From the NCBI GenBank assembly GCA_030158725.1, contig JAOASJ010000025.1, forward strand, positions 1 to 64,000: a stretch of DNA of 64,000 nucleotides, read 5' to 3'. The translations under genes were made by a program, and so were the position numbers. The stretch is from Bacteroidia bacterium (lineage in GTDB: Bacteria; Bacteroidota; Bacteroidia; NS11-12g; UBA955). The first letter of the stretch is position 1, and each line of letters opens with the position of its first letter. Positions 23,035 to 31,678 of the stretch are shown here, piece after piece. The notes beneath the pieces are model-generated. The model saw nothing but the letters and a program-made list of their open reading frames with translations. It did no database searches and was not told where the DNA came from.

Positions 23035-25737
23035 ATGAAAAAAATTTACTTACTTTTTTCCCTCTTAACAATTTCATTAAACGCCCTAAAATCAGAATGT
23101 GTTTTGGTGCCATTGAGTCTTGAAAACAGAGTTAATCCATCAACATTAATTGTAGAGGCAAAGGTTGGCACACAAGTTTCTTATTGGAATGCTGACCATA
23201 GTATGATTTTTACATCTCATGAATTGCTTTTAAGCAGTGTTTTCAAAGGTTCAGAATACTTAAAAGGAAACAAGATAAATATTATTACACTAGGTGGTCA
23301 AGTCGGTGATAAAGCCATAAAAGTTGAACCAGAACTTGAACTAGAATCAGGGGAAATCGGTATTTTTCTTCTAGTTCAAAAAGACGGTGAATGGGTATCC
23401 GAAAGCGGTCCACAAGGATTTATAAAAATTGATAAATATACAGGTGTTTCAAGTGATATATTCAACGTTTATCCTGCATTTAGCATTCAAAATAAAATTA
23501 AAAACTTAACAGGCTTGCCTAATGTTGAAATCAATGCTCTATTAACTAAAGTAACGATTAACAATAAAAGAGCTACCCCATCAATTAGTTCAATATCTCC
23601 CAAAACTTTATCAGCTGGAACCTCAACTGTATTAACAATTAAAGGTCTTAACTTTAAGCCAAGCATAGATACCAGCAGTGTTCAATTCAAAAATGCAGAT
23701 GATGGTGGAGCAAGTTATATCAAAGCTTTGAAAAGAGACTTTATATCTTGGTCTGATACAATGATTAAATTAATTGTAAGAACAAAAGCAGGAACAGGTA
23801 AAATAAGGCTTGTAGTTGCAGGCAATGGCATAACAACCTCAACTGATACTTTAAAAGTATCATTCGCTCATTTAAATGTTGTAAGTGGCGACTCAATAGG
23901 TTATGAAACCCAACAAATTGGCATGAATACAAGCAACGGTATTACATGGAAAATGAACCAAAGATTTTATGATTCTGCAGGAGCAAGAGGAGCTTTTATT
24001 AGAAGTCTAGAAAGATGGCGTTGTGGCACCTACATTAATTGGGATACTTTAGGACATGTTAAACATAGTTCTATAAAATCTGATGGTGTAAATATGTGTG
24101 CTTGGGACACTTTAAATAACATGCCGAATGGCGTATTAGCGCAATGTTTTAGCTATTGGTCTGGTTGTTTCAATCCTGGACTAAAATGGTATGTAAATGA
24201 ATTGGATATACGCTTCAGAATTAGACCTACTAATACAACTAATTGGAACTATACAACTGGACAAGCAAGCAGCAATCAATTTCATTTTGAATCAGTAGCT
24301 ACGCATGAATTAGGTCATGGCCATCAAATGGGACATGTTATTAATAGCGCAGTTGTAATGCACTATTCTATAGCTAATGGTCAAAACAAACCTAGTTTGA
24401 GTACTGATGATATTAATGCGGGAAACTATGTAATTAACAAAAGTGGAACATCTGTATGTGGTAAAAGTATTCATAGTAAACTGAATTCAGGTACTTGTGC
24501 AATTCTTGCACCGAGTGCAAATTTTAGAATTTCAAAAAATCCAGTCTGCAAAAATGAAGTAGTTACTTTTACAGATTCTTCAATAGGAAATATTTCAGCT
24601 TATGCATGGGATTTTGGCGCAAATGCTAGCCCAGCAACGGCAGTTGGTAAAGGTCCTCACAATTGTGTTTTCTCTGCAGGTGGTACAAAAACAATAAAAT
24701 TAACCATTACAACAATAACCGGTAATCTCGTTAAAACTAAAAATCTAACCGTACAGAATGACAGTAAAATGTATCCAAATTTTACCTATTTAGCGGCTGA
24801 AAAAGGAAATATAACCTTTACAAATTCCTCAAACAATCCAATAAGTGCTAAATGGTATTTTGGTGATGGCGACTCTAGTACAACAATTAGCCCTGCTCAT
24901 AAATATAATATCGGTGGGTCTTATAATGTTAAATTAAGTAGTTCAAATACCTGCAATACACGTGATACGACTATTAGCGTCAAATTATCTAATTTGAATT
25001 TCTATACCAATAAAGTCTCTGCTTGTATTAATGAGCCTGTTTATTATATTGATTCTAGTGATTCTTACGCAAGCAATTGGTCTTGGTCATTTCCTGGTGG
25101 ATTTCCTAGCACCGCAACAGGCAAAGGACCTCATAATGTTATTTACAACACACCTGGAAACAAAAACGCTTCTTTAACAATTTCATGTCCTGGAAACAAC
25201 AATACCAATCAATCATACACACGCAACAATCTTGTTAATATTGGAAATGATACCTTAACTGAAGCTTCATTTAATTACAGTTATTACGCAAATAACAAGG
25301 TAGGATTCATCAACCAATCAAGAGGAAGCAATCTAAATTATAAATGGTATTTTGGTGATGGAGACAGCAGCACAGAAAAAAATCCTGTTCATCAATATGC
25401 CAATGCAAATCTAAAAACAGTGAAATTAATTGTGAAAGGAAATTGTGGCACCAAAGACACAACAATTACCTTACGCGATTTTACTTTATTGAATCAAAAC
25501 AATATATTTTATATGGATTTTTACCCAAATCCAAGCTCTGACTATATTATGATTCAAAGCAATTTAGAACAAAAAATAAACGTAAAAATTACTGATGTAA
25601 GTGGTAAAATTGTTCTAGAATTGAATGCAAAGAATGGTGAAAAAATAGACCTTCAATCAATTTCTTCTGGTACTTATTTGGTTAAAATGAGCAGCGACGA
25701 GCTTGTTAAAAATCAAGTTTTACAGATTAATCATTAA
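23035..25737 (+). CDS. secreted PKD-rich metalloprotease with T9SS sorting domain
   Basis: A 900-residue exported protein. Order of parts: signal peptide (1-20), an N-terminal ~150-residue domain, an IPT/TIG domain (about 180-280), and a zinc metalloprotease domain with H424-E-L-G-H-G-H-Q-M-G-H434 and a downstream Met-turn V-V-M442-H-Y. Four PKD-like units follow (e.g. WYFGDGDSST twice, and two with WDFGA/WSFPGG...TGKGPHN). A T9SS type A sorting domain ends it (FYPNPSSDY...ITDVSGKIV...GTYLVKM). It would cross the outer membrane by T9SS and act at the cell surface or outside. The zinc motif has three His at metzincin spacing but Gln where Gly is usual. Substrate unknown. Confidence 0.85.
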   Translation: MKKIYLLFSLLTISLNALKSECVLVPLSLENRVNPSTLIVEAKVGTQVSYWNADHSMIFTSHELLLSSVFKGSEYLKGNKINIITLGGQVGDKAIKVEPELELESGEIGIFLLVQKDGEWVSESGPQGFIKIDKYTGVSSDIFNVYPAFSIQNKIKNLTGLPNVEINALLTKVTINNKRATPSISSISPKTLSAGTSTVLTIKGLNFKPSIDTSSVQFKNADDGGASYIKALKRDFISWSDTMIKLIVRTKAGTGKIRLVVAGNGITTSTDTLKVSFAHLNVVSGDSIGYETQQIGMNTSNGITWKMNQRFYDSAGARGAFIRSLERWRCGTYINWDTLGHVKHSSIKSDGVNMCAWDTLNNMPNGVLAQCFSYWSGCFNPGLKWYVNELDIRFRIRPTNTTNWNYTTGQASSNQFHFESVATHELGHGHQMGHVINSAVVMHYSIANGQNKPSLSTDDINAGNYVINKSGTSVCGKSIHSKLNSGTCAILAPSANFRISKNPVCKNEVVTFTDSSIGNISAYAWDFGANASPATAVGKGPHNCVFSAGGTKTIKLTITTITGNLVKTKNLTVQNDSKMYPNFTYLAAEKGNITFTNSSNNPISAKWYFGDGDSSTTISPAHKYNIGGSYNVKLSSSNTCNTRDTTISVKLSNLNFYTNKVSACINEPVYYIDSSDSYASNWSWSFPGGFPSTATGKGPHNVIYNTPGNKNASLTISCPGNNNTNQSYTRNNLVNIGNDTLTEASFNYSYYANNKVGFINQSRGSNLNYKWYFGDGDSSTEKNPVHQYANANLKTVKLIVKGNCGTKDTTITLRDFTLLNQNNIFYMDFYPNPSSDYIMIQSNLEQKINVKITDVSGKIVLELNAKNGEKIDLQSISSGTYLVKMSSDELVKNQVLQINH

Positions 25738-25852: not shown

Positions 25853-26074
25853 ATGTATTGGACCTTAGAATTAGTATCTTATTTAGATGATGCGCCATGG
25901 CCTGCAACCAAAGATGAGTTGATAGACTATGCTATTCGTTCTGGAGCACCAATGGAAGTTGTAGAAAACTTACAGGAGCTTGAAGACGATGGAGAACCAT
26001 ACGAAAGTATTGAGGAAATATGGGGTGATTATCCCACAGATGACGACTACTTCTTCCACGAAGACGAGCATTAA
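25853..26074 (+). CDS. DUF2795 domain protein
   Basis: A 73-residue acidic cytoplasmic protein filling one DUF2795 domain (WTLELVSYLDDAPWPATKDELIDYA, RSGAPMEVVENLQEL). The tail is strongly acidic (IWGDYPTDDDYFFHEDEH). The family is widely conserved in Bacteroidota and other bacteria, and its function is unknown to me; the small helical fold suggests protein binding. It has its own promoter. Its stop lies one base from the stop of the convergent Fic-fold gene. Confidence 0.85.
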   Translation: MYWTLELVSYLDDAPWPATKDELIDYAIRSGAPMEVVENLQELEDDGEPYESIEEIWGDYPTDDDYFFHEDEH

Positions 26075-26075
26075 T

Positions 26076-27332
26076 CTATCCGAAAAATGCTTTTTGACGC
26101 TTAGCCTTAACTTCTAATACCGGCTCTGGAGTCACAATTAATTTCTCAATTGGTACAATTGGGTTGGAGATTGATTGATTGAAAAATTCGTCAATTTTTA
26201 TATTGTTCTCATTCGAACGAACATTTTGAAACTTGTATAAATTATTCTTTTTGTTGTTAAAAGACGTGTTTAAATACAAACCAACTATTCCTTCAATTTT
26301 ACTTAATTCCAATACCTCAGATTCCATTAATACACTTATTGATTTCTTCTGTTGAAGTATATCAGTATGGTGACTTAATTCAAAAAAGTCAACGAATCCT
26401 TTATTTTGAATTTGCTTAATAATGCTATTGTTGGCTATACTGCCACTATCTATATTCAGATTCAACTTAAAGTTCTTGCTAAATATAAAATTAGATACAA
26501 TTTTTTGTTTTGAATTTAAACGTTTAAAGTTGATCTGTTCGTTATACAATTCTCTTAATTCAACTTTCATTGCAACCACATCTTCCTGAATTGAAGTAAG
26601 TAAACTTTTTATTGCCTTAATAGGATCCAATGTTTCCAAAGTCCAATTTTGATACAAGCTTGATTCCAAATCTAATTTTTGAAAGATATTTCCATATTGC
26701 TTCCAAAGTTGATAATTTAGATATAATAGAATTTGACGTTTATTCGAAAAACTGAATTTATTAAATGCATGCCAATCTAAAACGGAAAACAAGATGGTTT
26801 CAAGTGGCGAATACCCTTTAAAATCTTCCGCCCATTGTTCGAAAACAAGTTTTAAATCTTCAGGACATGATGCCGATTCTGGTGCTTGATTAGAAAATAA
26901 ATCAAAACTGTTATTTTGTTCTGCTTCTTCACTAAATAAAATACATTCATAAATTGATGATGTATTTTGTATAGTATGCAATCTAAAATTATCAATTGAT
27001 TTAAAATACTGCTCGGTTTCCTTTTTTATTAATATATTCCTACTAAGCTTCGTCTCCAAGTATTCTGGAATCAACAAAGTGTCAATGTTGGAATTAACCA
27101 AACAAGCATAATATGCAGATTTCTTTTTATAAGTCTTTTCTAAAAAGTTTCTTTTGAAAGTCTCGTTTAAGGGTATGTTTTTAAATAAACTTGAAATGGA
27201 TTCAAGTTCTTCATTTACCAACTTAAAATCGTTGGAAAATATCTTGTGTAACTGTTCAAAAATTAAATGATCCCTCATGGCTCTATGGCACAAAATTCGT
27301 TTACTTAAATCTAATTTTAAATCAATGTTCAT
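26076..27332 (-). CDS. degenerate Fic-fold protein, catalytic motif lost
   Basis: A 418-residue cytoplasmic protein that I read as a divergent Fic-family member. Residues 72-113 resemble the Fic N-terminal helix region, with CLVNSNIDT at the place of the usual SSxIEG-type segment. Residues 157-214 match the Fic core pattern (P-x-D-L...W...H-A-F then the HPFxDGNGR position): here it reads N191-K-F-S-F-S-N-K-R199, keeping F, N and R but losing His, Pro, Asp and Gly. The core ends ILLYLNYQLWKQYG. Residues 268-318 resemble the winged-helix tail of Fic proteins (INFKRLNSKQKIVSNFI...GFVDFF). Without the catalytic His it should not transfer AMP. The fold assignment is inference from pattern; function unknown. 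Confidence 0.55.
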   Translation of the reverse strand: MNIDLKLDLSKRILCHRAMRDHLIFEQLHKIFSNDFKLVNEELESISSLFKNIPLNETFKRNFLEKTYKKKSAYYACLVNSNIDTLLIPEYLETKLSRNILIKKETEQYFKSIDNFRLHTIQNTSSIYECILFSEEAEQNNSFDLFSNQAPESASCPEDLKLVFEQWAEDFKGYSPLETILFSVLDWHAFNKFSFSNKRQILLYLNYQLWKQYGNIFQKLDLESSLYQNWTLETLDPIKAIKSLLTSIQEDVVAMKVELRELYNEQINFKRLNSKQKIVSNFIFSKNFKLNLNIDSGSIANNSIIKQIQNKGFVDFFELSHHTDILQQKKSISVLMESEVLELSKIEGIVGLYLNTSFNNKKNNLYKFQNVRSNENNIKIDEFFNQSISNPIVPIEKLIVTPEPVLEVKAKRQKAFFG

Positions 27333-27645: not shown

Positions 27646-28032
27646 ATGGAATACACAAATAATGTTCTGAAACCGTTTCACATCACCGAAGATAAAATTC
27701 TGGAAGTTTTATATAAAGATGATGTTGTTGTTACCCTAGATGAAATGAAATTTCTATTAGATGATTTATATAAATTCACAGGCAAAAAGCGACTAAAACG
27801 TCTGATTGTAATCTCTAAAAATGCTAAAATGGATTTAGCAGCACGCATTTATCTTCAAGAAAGTAATAAAGACAACAAAGACCTCATTGCAGCTGAAGCT
27901 ATTGTGGTTTATTCACTGACACAAAAAATGACAACAAATTTTTATTTGAAATTCATTAAAGATATTTACCCTTCTAAATTCTTTACAGATATTGAAAAAG
28001 CCAGAGATTGGCTACACAAACACAATCAATAA
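27646..28032 (+). CDS. STAS/SEC14-like (DUF7793-type) protein
   Basis: A 128-residue cytoplasmic alpha/beta protein. The pattern of a short strand (ILEVLYKDDVVVTLDEM), helix, strand (KRLIVISKNA), helix, strand (AAEAIVVYSLTQKM) and then FYLKFIKDIYPSKFFTDIEKARDWL matches the small STAS/SEC14-like proteins common in Bacteroidota. These proteins usually have no known ligand. It is divergent from the Fic-fold gene across the inverted repeat and converges on hflX with a seven-base overlap of the coding ends. Confidence 0.65.
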   Translation: MEYTNNVLKPFHITEDKILEVLYKDDVVVTLDEMKFLLDDLYKFTGKKRLKRLIVISKNAKMDLAARIYLQESNKDNKDLIAAEAIVVYSLTQKMTTNFYLKFIKDIYPSKFFTDIEKARDWLHKHNQ

Positions 28033-29180
28033 TTCTCGGAAAAAAGCTCGACTATTTTTTGTTTAAAACCTAAAATATTGGTTTTACTAGTAGCGGAAAT
28101 AAATACTACTGGAGCGTGCTCCTTACTAATCCAACTTCTTTCAAATTCAGTAAGTACCGTATCAGGATTGCTCTCCAAATAAGCATCAATTTTATTAAAA
28201 ACCAATAGCGTTGGTTTGTCTTTAGCTCCAATCTCAAATAATGTCTGCTTTACCAATAACATTTGGTTTTCAAACTCAGGATTTGAAATATCAATTACAT
28301 GAATCAAAGCATCTGCCTCTATCACTTCTGCTAAAGTACTTTTAAAACTTTCAATCAATAATGTTGGCAGTTTTCTAATGAAACCAACCGTATCACTTAA
28401 AAGAATTGGAATATGTCTTCCTTCTGTTCTATGATCTTCTAAAACAACTTTACGAACTGTAGAGTCGAGGGTTGCAAATAATTTGTTCTCGGCTAAAATA
28501 TCTGCATTGCTCAATAAGTTCATTATTGTGCTTTTGCCAACGTTGGTATAACCAACCAATGCTACCCTTTTCTTATCAAATCTATTCTGCCTTTGAACAT
28601 AATTCTGTTTTTCAATTAAGGCCAAACGTTCTTGAAGTTTAGTAATATTGCTTCTAATAACCCTTCTATCCGTTTCAATCTCTGTTTCACCAGGACCTTT
28701 CATACCAATACCACCCTTTTGCTTTGATAAGTGGGTCCACATTTTAGTTAAACGTGGTAGCATGTACTGATTCTGAGCAAGCTCAACTTGGGTCTTGGCT
28801 TGTGCTGTTTTTGCATTTTTTGAGAAAATATCAAGAATTAACATGCTTCTATCAAGAATTTTGACATCTTTGATAACACGCTCAATATTCCTGATTTGAG
28901 AAGGACTTAACTCATCATCAAAAATAACCATATCCGCACCTTCAACTTTTACCATAGTTTCCAATTCGCCCAATTTGCCTTCTCCCAAAAAAGTTCTTGG
29001 ATCAGGATATTCTAAATTCTGGGTTATTCTCCCTTTAGTAATAGCTCCTGCAGTTGTTGTTAATGCTTCTAATTCGTCTAAATAATCCTTCAGATGATTC
29101 TCTCTATCACCTTTACGATGCACCCCAACTAGAATTGCTTTTTCGGTCTTAACATCGTTATAAAAATATGCAGGTTTCAA
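28026..29180 (-). CDS. hflX: GTPase HflX
   Basis: A 384-residue ribosome-associated GTPase that splits or rescues stalled 70S ribosomes under stress. The N-terminal HflX domain is about residues 1-190 and includes GGIGMKGPGETEIETDRR. The G domain follows: G1 GYTNVGKST, G3 DTVGFI, G4 NKID, G5 SATS. Full length for Bacteroidota. The start is a TTG at 29180 (KPAYFYNDVKTEKAILVG); no ATG gives the conserved N-terminus. A minus-strand -7 box lies about 30 bases upstream. Its 3' end overlaps the convergent STAS-like gene. Confidence 0.95.
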   Translation of the reverse strand: MKPAYFYNDVKTEKAILVGVHRKGDRENHLKDYLDELEALTTTAGAITKGRITQNLEYPDPRTFLGEGKLGELETMVKVEGADMVIFDDELSPSQIRNIERVIKDVKILDRSMLILDIFSKNAKTAQAKTQVELAQNQYMLPRLTKMWTHLSKQKGGIGMKGPGETEIETDRRVIRSNITKLQERLALIEKQNYVQRQNRFDKKRVALVGYTNVGKSTIMNLLSNADILAENKLFATLDSTVRKVVLEDHRTEGRHIPILLSDTVGFIRKLPTLLIESFKSTLAEVIEADALIHVIDISNPEFENQMLLVKQTLFEIGAKDKPTLLVFNKIDAYLESNPDTVLTEFERSWISKEHAPVVFISATSKTNILGFKQKIVELFSENY

Positions 29181-29246: not shown

Positions 29247-30716
29247 GTGAAAATTTACAACAAAATAAATCGCCTCGCTCTGATTCTAACTTTCTTGGCT
29301 TTTTTAGCTTCACAAAATTGCTTTTCCCAACAAATCCTGTGGGCAAACAAAAACAACCTAGATAAAAAAACTGATTTCACTAAAGTTATTGGTCAAAATA
29401 AATTTGGAGTATACGTTCTAAAACATAGAAATAGCAGTTTTAGACGGTATTTTTTATTAGAATATTTTGATAAAAGAATGAATCTTTTAAAGAGTAAAAC
29501 CTTCAAAATACCTAATTCAGAATTAGAAAAAATAGTAGTTACTCCCAACAATATTATTGCTTTTTCTAAGGAATATTCAAAAGGAAATTTAAGTCGGTTA
29601 TTTTACCAAATCATAGATTCGAATTTTACCGCCTCTGAGGCACACACCATTGTGAATTTTGACAATCCAGACATTGAAATGTCAGATATTAGGATTGAAT
29701 ACAATTCAACAAAAAATAAATTTTTAATCTGGTATTTAAGCAGTGAAGATGGTAAAAGTAATTTGAACTCTTTTCTCTTGCACAATAGGAAAATAAGCAA
29801 AAACTTCACTCCGGCAATTAATTGCAAACTAGAGAATTTCTTCATTGGTGACGCTTTAATTGACGACACCGGAAACTTATATCTGATTTACTCAAAATCC
29901 GAAAAATTCAAAAGTAAATTGGCTATTGATTTTGAGCACCGTTTATATGCATTTAACCTTTCCAATAATTCAAATATAGATATTAAGATTAACGAGGATA
30001 ATACATTCTTAAGTGCCTATAAATTGTCCTATAACAAGGCATACTCTGAAGTTTTGGCCTTTGGATTGAATGGTGTTTCAGATGAAGACGAAAACAAAGG
30101 TTATTTTTCAATTAGAATAAAATGTTCCAATTTTAACGTCTTGTCTAAAATAAACAAAGACTTCGACCGCAAATTGGTGAGCCAAGTATTAGGTCTGAAA
30201 AACGAACAAAAAGGAGAACAACTCAATAAATTTAAAATAAAAAAAATAATACCCAAATTAGATGGGGGTATGTTAGCGATTTGCGAAAGGATGTTTATTA
30301 CGACTCAAAGTGACGTCTTCTACGTCAACGGAATTCCTCAAAGTACCTATGCTAGAATTTTTAATAATGATGAAGTTTTAGTACTAGATTTGGACTCTAA
30401 TGGCAATCCAAATTGGTTTGATATCGTCAATAAAAACCAATCCTCAATTAATGATGGTGGTTATTACAATGGAATCGTTATAATGGTTAACGATGCGGAA
30501 ATAAATATTCTATACAATGATAGGCTAAGCGCAAATGCTGACATTATACAAGTGAGTTACAAGGCAAATGGAGAACATTCTAAGAAAATATTGTTGAATA
30601 ATGACCAATATTACGCTTTGCTTATCCCCTCGGAATACAATCAGGTTACAGCCAACAGTATTGTCCTTCCTATCAATCAAAATCGAGATTTCACATTTAT
30701 AAAACTACTGTATTGA
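29247..30716 (+). CDS. secreted protein of unknown function, propeller-like
   Basis: A 489-residue exported protein. The GTG start at 29247 gives a good signal peptide (KIYNKINRLALILTFLAFLASQNCFSQ). The mature part is a series of short beta strands with repeats such as FGVYVLKHRN, FLIWYLSSED and NLYLIYSKSE, suggesting a beta-propeller; there is no T9SS tail. No family recognised. Its last codons overlap the start of the DUF6427-like membrane gene, so the two are co-translated and may work together. Confidence 0.65.
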   Translation: MKIYNKINRLALILTFLAFLASQNCFSQQILWANKNNLDKKTDFTKVIGQNKFGVYVLKHRNSSFRRYFLLEYFDKRMNLLKSKTFKIPNSELEKIVVTPNNIIAFSKEYSKGNLSRLFYQIIDSNFTASEAHTIVNFDNPDIEMSDIRIEYNSTKNKFLIWYLSSEDGKSNLNSFLLHNRKISKNFTPAINCKLENFFIGDALIDDTGNLYLIYSKSEKFKSKLAIDFEHRLYAFNLSNNSNIDIKINEDNTFLSAYKLSYNKAYSEVLAFGLNGVSDEDENKGYFSIRIKCSNFNVLSKINKDFDRKLVSQVLGLKNEQKGEQLNKFKIKKIIPKLDGGMLAICERMFITTQSDVFYVNGIPQSTYARIFNNDEVLVLDLDSNGNPNWFDIVNKNQSSINDGGYYNGIVIMVNDAEINILYNDRLSANADIIQVSYKANGEHSKKILLNNDQYYALLIPSEYNQVTANSIVLPINQNRDFTFIKLLY

Positions 30717-31678
30717 TACGTTTTTTTTCACATACCTTTAACCAAACTATTTTATTTCTATTTTTATTTACAATTGTAATTAGAACCACTGGGTTATTGG
30801 TGCCATACATAAACACCACACAAACAATCAATATTAGCTATTTATCAGAGTTTTTTAGATTGTTAAATTATTACCCAATTGTAGGATTTTCAATATCAAC
30901 CATATTCGTCTTTATTACCGGATTAATTTTTAATAGAATATGTGTTAAACATGAGCTAATTATCTTCCCATCTTATTTACCAGCTTATTTCTTTGTATTA
31001 TTAAATTCTGTTTTTGTTGACCAATTTTATGCAGGTCCAGTAATCTTCGTCAACTTTTTTATGATAGTTTCCTTGGGTGCCATTTTGAACTTATTTCAAT
31101 CTGAAAACCCAAGTATTGCTATATTTTCTGCTTCAACTTTGGCAGGTCTAAGTGCATTGTTAAATATGACTTATGTTGCCTTCTTTATAGTTGTTCTAAT
31201 CGGAATAAATATTTTTAGGCAATTTAATTTTAGAGAAAATATTTCAGCTTTAATTGGCTTTTTAATGCCCTTGTATGTTGGCACAATGGTCAATTACTTA
31301 ATCAACGGAAACTTTTTGCCGTTTTACCTCTTTTTCCCTGATTATGGAAATTTCAACAACCAATATTGGGCGCTTTATTCAGCACTCCCAAGTATTGGAT
31401 TGGTTGGTATATTGGCATTCTTTAGGATGTACAGAAACTTCTTTCGAAACTCCACAAAGCAAAGAAGATTTATACAATTTATGATGATTTTCCTCATCAC
31501 TACACTAGTTTTAGTAACCACAGGAAAACAAAATCCTAGGCAAGAATTCTCATTTGTTACGATACCCTTAGCCTACGCATTTACATTTTACTTTGCCAAT
31601 AGCAAAATAAACATACTAAAAGAAATAGTAAATATCCTTTTAATTATTTCCATCTTGTACTTTAGATGGTATCATTAA
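30713..31678 (+). CDS. DUF6427-like integral membrane protein
   Basis: A 321-residue inner-membrane protein with about nine helices. The order of motifs (IRFFSHTFNQTILFL at the start, a PSYLPAYFFVLLNSVF segment, VIFVNFFMIVSLGAI, NIFRQFNFRENISALIGFLMPLY) matches the Bacteroidota DUF6427 family, whose function is unknown. It starts with a TTG that overlaps the previous stop (ATTGA), so it is translationally coupled to the secreted hypothetical protein. No signal of transport specificity is visible. Confidence 0.6.
   Translation: MIRFFSHTFNQTILFLFLFTIVIRTTGLLVPYINTTQTINISYLSEFFRLLNYYPIVGFSISTIFVFITGLIFNRICVKHELIIFPSYLPAYFFVLLNSVFVDQFYAGPVIFVNFFMIVSLGAILNLFQSENPSIAIFSASTLAGLSALLNMTYVAFFIVVLIGINIFRQFNFRENISALIGFLMPLYVGTMVNYLINGNFLPFYLFFPDYGNFNNQYWALYSALPSIGLVGILAFFRMYRNFFRNSTKQRRFIQFMMIFLITTLVLVTTGKQNPRQEFSFVTIPLAYAFTFYFANSKINILKEIVNILLIISILYFRWYH

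Follow-up and report, generated by a model that had tools for sequence, protein, structure and literature searches.

Fic enzymes attach AMP to other proteins. The window (the whole stretch of 64,000 nucleotides analysed here) carries a minus-strand ORF, first annotated at 26076–27332 and encoding 418 aa, which the earlier note read as a Fic-family protein that has lost its catalytic motif while the rest of the chain stays intact. Does this protein indeed descend from Fic proteins, is its gene still maintained and, if so, what might it do?

The pseudo-Fic gene and its chromosomal site

The true start of the gene is probably at 27278 and not at 27332, because the relatives begin at the residue that corresponds to Met19 of the window ORF (AMRDHL...). 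The features referred to below, with residues counted along the 418-aa ORF, are:

26076..27278, minus strand: pseudo-Fic gene, probable extent (400 aa from Met19)
27009..27131, minus strand: most conserved block, residues 68–108, over the position of the Fic inhibitory helix (identity of 0.75 in the genus), VNSNIDTLLIPEYLETKLSRNILIKKET
26736..26762, minus strand: NKFSFSNKR, residues 191–199, at the position of the Fic catalytic motif (from the union alignment)
26502..26522, minus strand: RLNSKQK, residues 271–277, conserved linker before the winged helix (from the alignments)
26265..26468, minus strand: degenerate winged-helix segment, residues 289–356, without NRKTIQRDF (placed by the C-terminal profile match to relatives)
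26079..26096, minus strand: QKAFFG C-terminal tail, residues 413–418 (identity of 0.83)
25853..26074, plus strand: DUF2795 gene, convergent downstream neighbour (PF11387, E 1.4e-19)
28026..29180, minus strand: hflX GTPase gene, upstream of pseudo-Fic on the same strand (from Pfam)

The pseudo-Fic gene is under purifying selection: dN/dS between the window gene and its nearest relative is 0.056 (0.014 for hflX and 0.087 for tilS, the two comparison genes), which rules out a decaying pseudogene. All 17 genomes of the genus carry exactly one copy. Mean pairwise identity within the genus is 0.40 for the whole protein, with large differences between its segments: residues 68–108 reach 0.75 and the last six residues 0.83, the old catalytic loop stands at 0.54, and the winged helix and the C-terminal linker fall to 0.27 and 0.26, respectively.

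The stop codons of pseudo-Fic and of the convergent DUF2795 gene lie 1 nt apart. DUF2795 is found convergent and downstream at 16 of the 17 loci of the genus (the other one is ended by the contig end) and at 4/4 other loci of the window’s own family, f1, as well as in other families of the class (25/31 loci in f12 and 5/5 in f40). Upstream on the same strand, hflX is present at 15/17 genus loci, 3/4 other f1 loci and 4/5 f40 loci. As these neighbours are shared, synteny backs the orthology across families independently of sequence similarity. The motif-less gene was detected in 52 of the 58 f12 genomes sampled at E <1e-49, well separated from the next match (3.6e-19). Neither family profile found relatives on viral contigs, which leaves a phage origin without support. 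Finally, in six other f1 genera sampled (g2, g4, g5, g6, g16 and g19; loci L247–L256, L259 and L262) DUF2795 is directly convergent with hflX, and pseudo-Fic is cleanly missing. Loss is the simpler reading of this absence, since f40 shares the three-gene order, and having been lost there the gene would not be essential in these sister genera.

Several of the surrounding genes deserve a mention in their own right. The DUF2795 protein, small and of unknown function, shows 83–100% identity across the f1, f40 and f12 orthologues, a very high figure for such a protein, and it is present in 67 of the 70 genomes of the family. Some but not all genomes of the genus have a DUF7793 gene (27646–28032, plus strand; PF25056, E 1.6e-20) between pseudo-Fic and hflX. 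Past hflX, two conserved plus-strand genes (29247–31678), encoding a 489-aa protein without a Pfam match and a 321-aa DUF6427 protein, hold the same place in the genus and in f40. At 23035–25737 on the plus strand lies a gene for a 900-aa secreted-looking protein that, judged from the translation alone, has a HELGHGH metalloprotease-like site, PKD-like repeats and a sorting-type C-terminal domain.

Descent from Fic proteins and the old motif positions

Direct searches do not reveal what the protein is. A Pfam scan of the window protein matched no family up to E 10; the 17-member genus alignment (A1) matched only chance families, with no PF02661 in any member up to the same limit; and a search of the genomes with PF13784 gave no match in the window’s own genome. 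The NCBIfam scan returned nothing meaningful, an acyl-carrier-protein match being dismissed as chance (E 0.007; 16.5 bits where the cut-off is 65), and the own-family profile found only chance matches in the PDB. Compared directly with active Fic proteins by hhalign, the own family scored 0.7% (A1 against A2, an alignment of 11 active Fic proteins) and 0.2%.

The connection runs through relatives. Searching the genomes of the class with a wider own-family alignment (A3) retrieved proteins of ~360–440 aa in families f12, f36, f40 and f59, most of the matches aligning mainly in the C-terminal half. An alignment of these relatives (A5) matches the own family with an hhalign probability of 98.9% (E 1.6e-17, 350 columns) and active Fic proteins with one of 99.2% (E 2.9e-19, 275 columns that take in the core and the winged helix). 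In order to exclude a link made by the winged helix only, we scored the segments separately against one reversed and 15 column-permuted decoys. The N-terminus plus core of the own family scored 46.0 against A5 (decoys up to 19.3), and that of A5 scored 92.4 against Fic (decoys up to 16.1); the C-terminal parts scored 88.4 (98.5%; decoys up to 15.3) and 59.6 (decoys up to 16.8), respectively. Compared directly with Fic, the own family remained inside the decoy range for the N-terminus plus core and barely above the decoys for the C-terminal part. Furthermore, the A5 profile matches solved Fic structures (4rgl at E 9e-8 and SoFic at 1.4e-4), and PF02661 matches 8 of the 15 A5 relatives, albeit weakly (best 7e-5). 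In a maximum-likelihood tree, which is unrooted and has some long branches, one branch (100/98) splits all 31 active Fic proteins from all motif-less ones, a topology that is compatible with a single loss of the motif but does not prove it. Taken together, the profile chain with its decoys, the synteny and the tree support common descent with Fic proteins, established indirectly through the relatives, from an ancestor that probably combined a Fic part with a winged helix; the earlier assignment to the Fic family thus holds. As for the fold, the Fic_N-like N-terminal helices and the C-terminal winged helix of the window protein are matched by remote homology to A5, both over the whole chain and by segments, and a Fic fold is presumed on this basis; an AlphaFold model built from three close sequences was unusable (pLDDT of 33).

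What became of the motif positions could be read from a MAFFT alignment of 66 proteins (own family, relatives and active Fic), made without guidance from the motifs. Here NKFSFSNKR falls exactly under HPFLDGNGR of active Fic, and NSNIDT falls under SSRIEG, so that both sites proposed from the single sequence (the former at HPFxDGNGR and the latter, within CLVNSNIDT, at an SxxIEG-like position) were placed correctly. Against HPFx[D/E]GN[G/K]R, the window protein lacks the His, the Pro, the Asp and both Gly. The missing His is a feature of the homologues as well: the catalytic His and an intact DGNGR part are absent from 35/35 aligned motif-less members. One relative from another family (L068) reads GPWGMANGR at the motif position and is, by its sequence, an intermediate. 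The proposal that F, N and R of the motif are kept stands for the Arg, since R199 is the only residue of the old motif invariant in the genus, but for the other two it partly reflects the window sequence alone: at the first F, 11 of 16 genus members have F, three have Y and two have N, and the N is kept in 6/16. Around the old motif, every genus member has W187, R199, N206 and E223, and nearly every one has H188; between families the residues at the old catalytic loop vary. The class II inhibitory motif, (S/T)xxxE(G/N), was not found in the window protein, which has NSNIDT; the relatives L062 and L068 have NALEGN and TALEGV at this position.

The winged helix and the C-terminal tail

The winged helix of the relatives is that of a recognisable DNA-binding family: it matches HTH_11 in 14/15 of them (best 1.6e-8) and HTH_DeoR in 13/15, and the recognition helix NRKTIQRDF is present in 14/15 when conservative changes are allowed. 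This signature is absent from the window protein and from every f1 member, and the window protein matches neither HTH_11 nor HTH_DeoR. A transcription regulator, as suggested, is therefore a better description of the relatives in other families, with their DeoR/HTH_11 recognition helix, than of the window protein, which has lost the signature. The L-N-x-x-Q-K site singled out earlier is real (RLNSKQK here, with LNPRQKN as its counterpart in other families), but it precedes the winged helix.

At its very end, after a variable linker, the protein reads KAFFG in nearly all members of the genus, the genus pattern being (R/K)xKAFFG. In the window’s own genome, K-x-F-F-G followed by a stop codon is encoded once, at the pseudo-Fic gene; the few additional DNA matches elsewhere in the genus do not end any ORF over 40 aa. 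The five f40 orthologues sampled (L135–L139) all carry a C-terminal tail peptide as well, QISLFG, QMNLFG or QESLFG, and f12 members have no such QxxLFG tail. The consensus peptide that binds the beta sliding clamp, QLxLF, is often found at C-termini (PMC4549789). The f40 peptides are close to it, and the genus tail fits it only partly. MutS proteins of these genomes, assigned by position and motif, have QLTMFG or QLQMF at their clamp site.

A probable binding protein and its alternatives

We consider it most likely, with a probability of roughly 0.62, that the pseudo-Fic protein acts by binding and not by catalysis, as a regulator or scaffold. The proposed course of events starts from a Fic plus winged-helix protein whose AMP-transfer motif would have been lost before the families with the DUF2795 neighbour separated, the gene having presumably been inherited vertically at one chromosomal site ever since. 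In the relatives the product would most likely be a DNA-binding regulator whose dead Fic domain serves for sensing or interaction. In the window lineage, where the DNA-reading helix has been lost too, a non-enzymatic binding or scaffold protein is the most likely outcome, one that may contact a partner through the conserved block of the former inhibitory helix and present KAFFG as a short C-terminal docking peptide. Catalysis would thus have gone first and the DNA-reading signature second, with constraint now falling on the inhibitory-helix block and the tail. Several points count against this reading: Fic and the own family do not match when compared directly, the AlphaFold model is too poor to reveal a Fic bundle, genes that converge may lie side by side without working together, and several sister genera have lost the gene.

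The first of these points also feeds the suspicion that the resemblance to Fic is accidental and that an unrelated helical family merely shares a winged helix with the relatives, as the missing Pfam match and the C-terminal bias of the class-level matches might suggest. We regard this as highly improbable, given that the N-terminus and core score far above the decoys (46 against a maximum of 19.3) with the winged helix left out, that the relatives occupy the same genomic position and that the unsupervised alignment matches both motif sites. A second alternative accepts the descent and holds that the protein is still an enzyme, with a Fido active site rebuilt along the lines of AvrB or Doc, so as to bind a nucleotide and modify a protein by means of different residues. 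The invariant W187, R199, N206 and E223 and the nearly invariant H188 would suit such a site, and AvrB itself, though it has no such motif, retains the fold and binds ADP (PMC2686095); nevertheless, the old loop is conserved only moderately and less than the inhibitory-helix block (0.54 and 0.75), the Asp and the glycines of the anion hole have been lost, and the loop residues differ between families, which together make a surviving enzyme unlikely.

The high conservation of the inhibitory-helix region could instead mean that the protein regulates, or serves as antitoxin to, an active Fic protein of its own cell, and inhibition of one Fic protein by another in heterologous pairs is documented in Campylobacter fetus (PMC5651007). 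The glutamate of the inhibitory motif is absent, however, and the supposed targets are patchy, with 0 to 7 PF02661 matches per genus genome: six of the 17 genomes, the window’s own included, have none and yet keep the pseudo-Fic gene. One of them, G008, is 98% complete and has no Fic enzyme that PF02661 can detect. We therefore reject this as the main role, and think it the least probable of the alternatives in any form. The tail, finally, invites a more specific proposal, namely a factor of DNA metabolism that docks on the beta sliding clamp by its tail and recruits cargo with its dead Fic body. In its favour are the likeness of all five f40 tails to QLxLF (PMC4549789), the use of QLTMFG or QLQMF by the MutS proteins of the clade and the conservation of the genus tail at 0.83. 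Against it, the Gln is found in only 9/16 genus members (others have KK, PK, AK or RK), the second position holds a Lys, such a tail is missing from f12 members, and the tail may bind something else. Docking on the clamp is thus a lead and not a result, and the proposal built on it is a doubtful one.

Comparison with known systems places the proposed non-catalytic binder as follows. SoFic (PDB 3eqx/3zcn) and PDB 4rgl share its layout, in which N-terminal helices bearing the inhibitory position are followed by a Fic core and a winged helix, the profile likeness to them running through the f12, f40, f36 and f59 relatives; unlike these, the window protein has no HPFx[D/E]GN[G/K]R, no inhibitory Glu and no recognition helix, and its gene is single-copy, at a fixed locus and by all appearances vertically inherited, where the SoFic/4rgl type has patchy copies. 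DUF1612 (Rhizobium y4cF) also joins a remote Fic-like N-terminus to a winged helix (PMC2686095) and is likewise recognised by remote homology alone, but it belongs to other taxa and no DUF1612 match was obtained among the members scanned; this comparison is by description only. AvrB belongs to Fido by descent and, like our protein, is without most of the motif, but it still binds ADP and has an inserted lobe (PMC2686095). A precedent for a non-catalytic Fic role is provided by Bartonella BepC, whose Fic-domain effect is independent of the catalytic His (PMC7842913); BepC, however, still has the motif, is injected as an effector and carries a BID domain; pseudo-Fic, encoded on the chromosome of an uncultured member of the Bacteroidota, has no such domain. 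The likeness to DeoR/HTH_11 regulators concerns the winged helix of the relatives and not that of the window protein, and the effector domain would be Fic-derived rather than sugar-phosphate binding.

As a rule, Fic proteins are toxins, effectors or modifiers of patchy occurrence. The catalytically dead Fic lineage described here is now single-copy and positionally fixed (17/17 genomes of the genus and 52/58 sampled f12 genomes), and it is missed by current family models; we found no report of such a family in the literature, a weak indication as subscription papers were outside the search. Living relatives appear to form a graded series, from active Fic through motif-less, DNA-binding proteins to motif-less ones in which the DNA-reading helix is lost, and the natural deletions between DUF2795 and hflX offer ready-made comparisons. 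In its boldest form, which we hold only tentatively and judge improbable as a whole, the path would lead from an AMP-transferase through a DNA-binding regulator to an adaptor that neither catalyses nor reads DNA, using its inhibitory-helix surface and docking by its C-terminal peptide to a piece of core machinery, for instance the sliding clamp. If the tail is a docking peptide, a modifying enzyme would have been turned into an adaptor.
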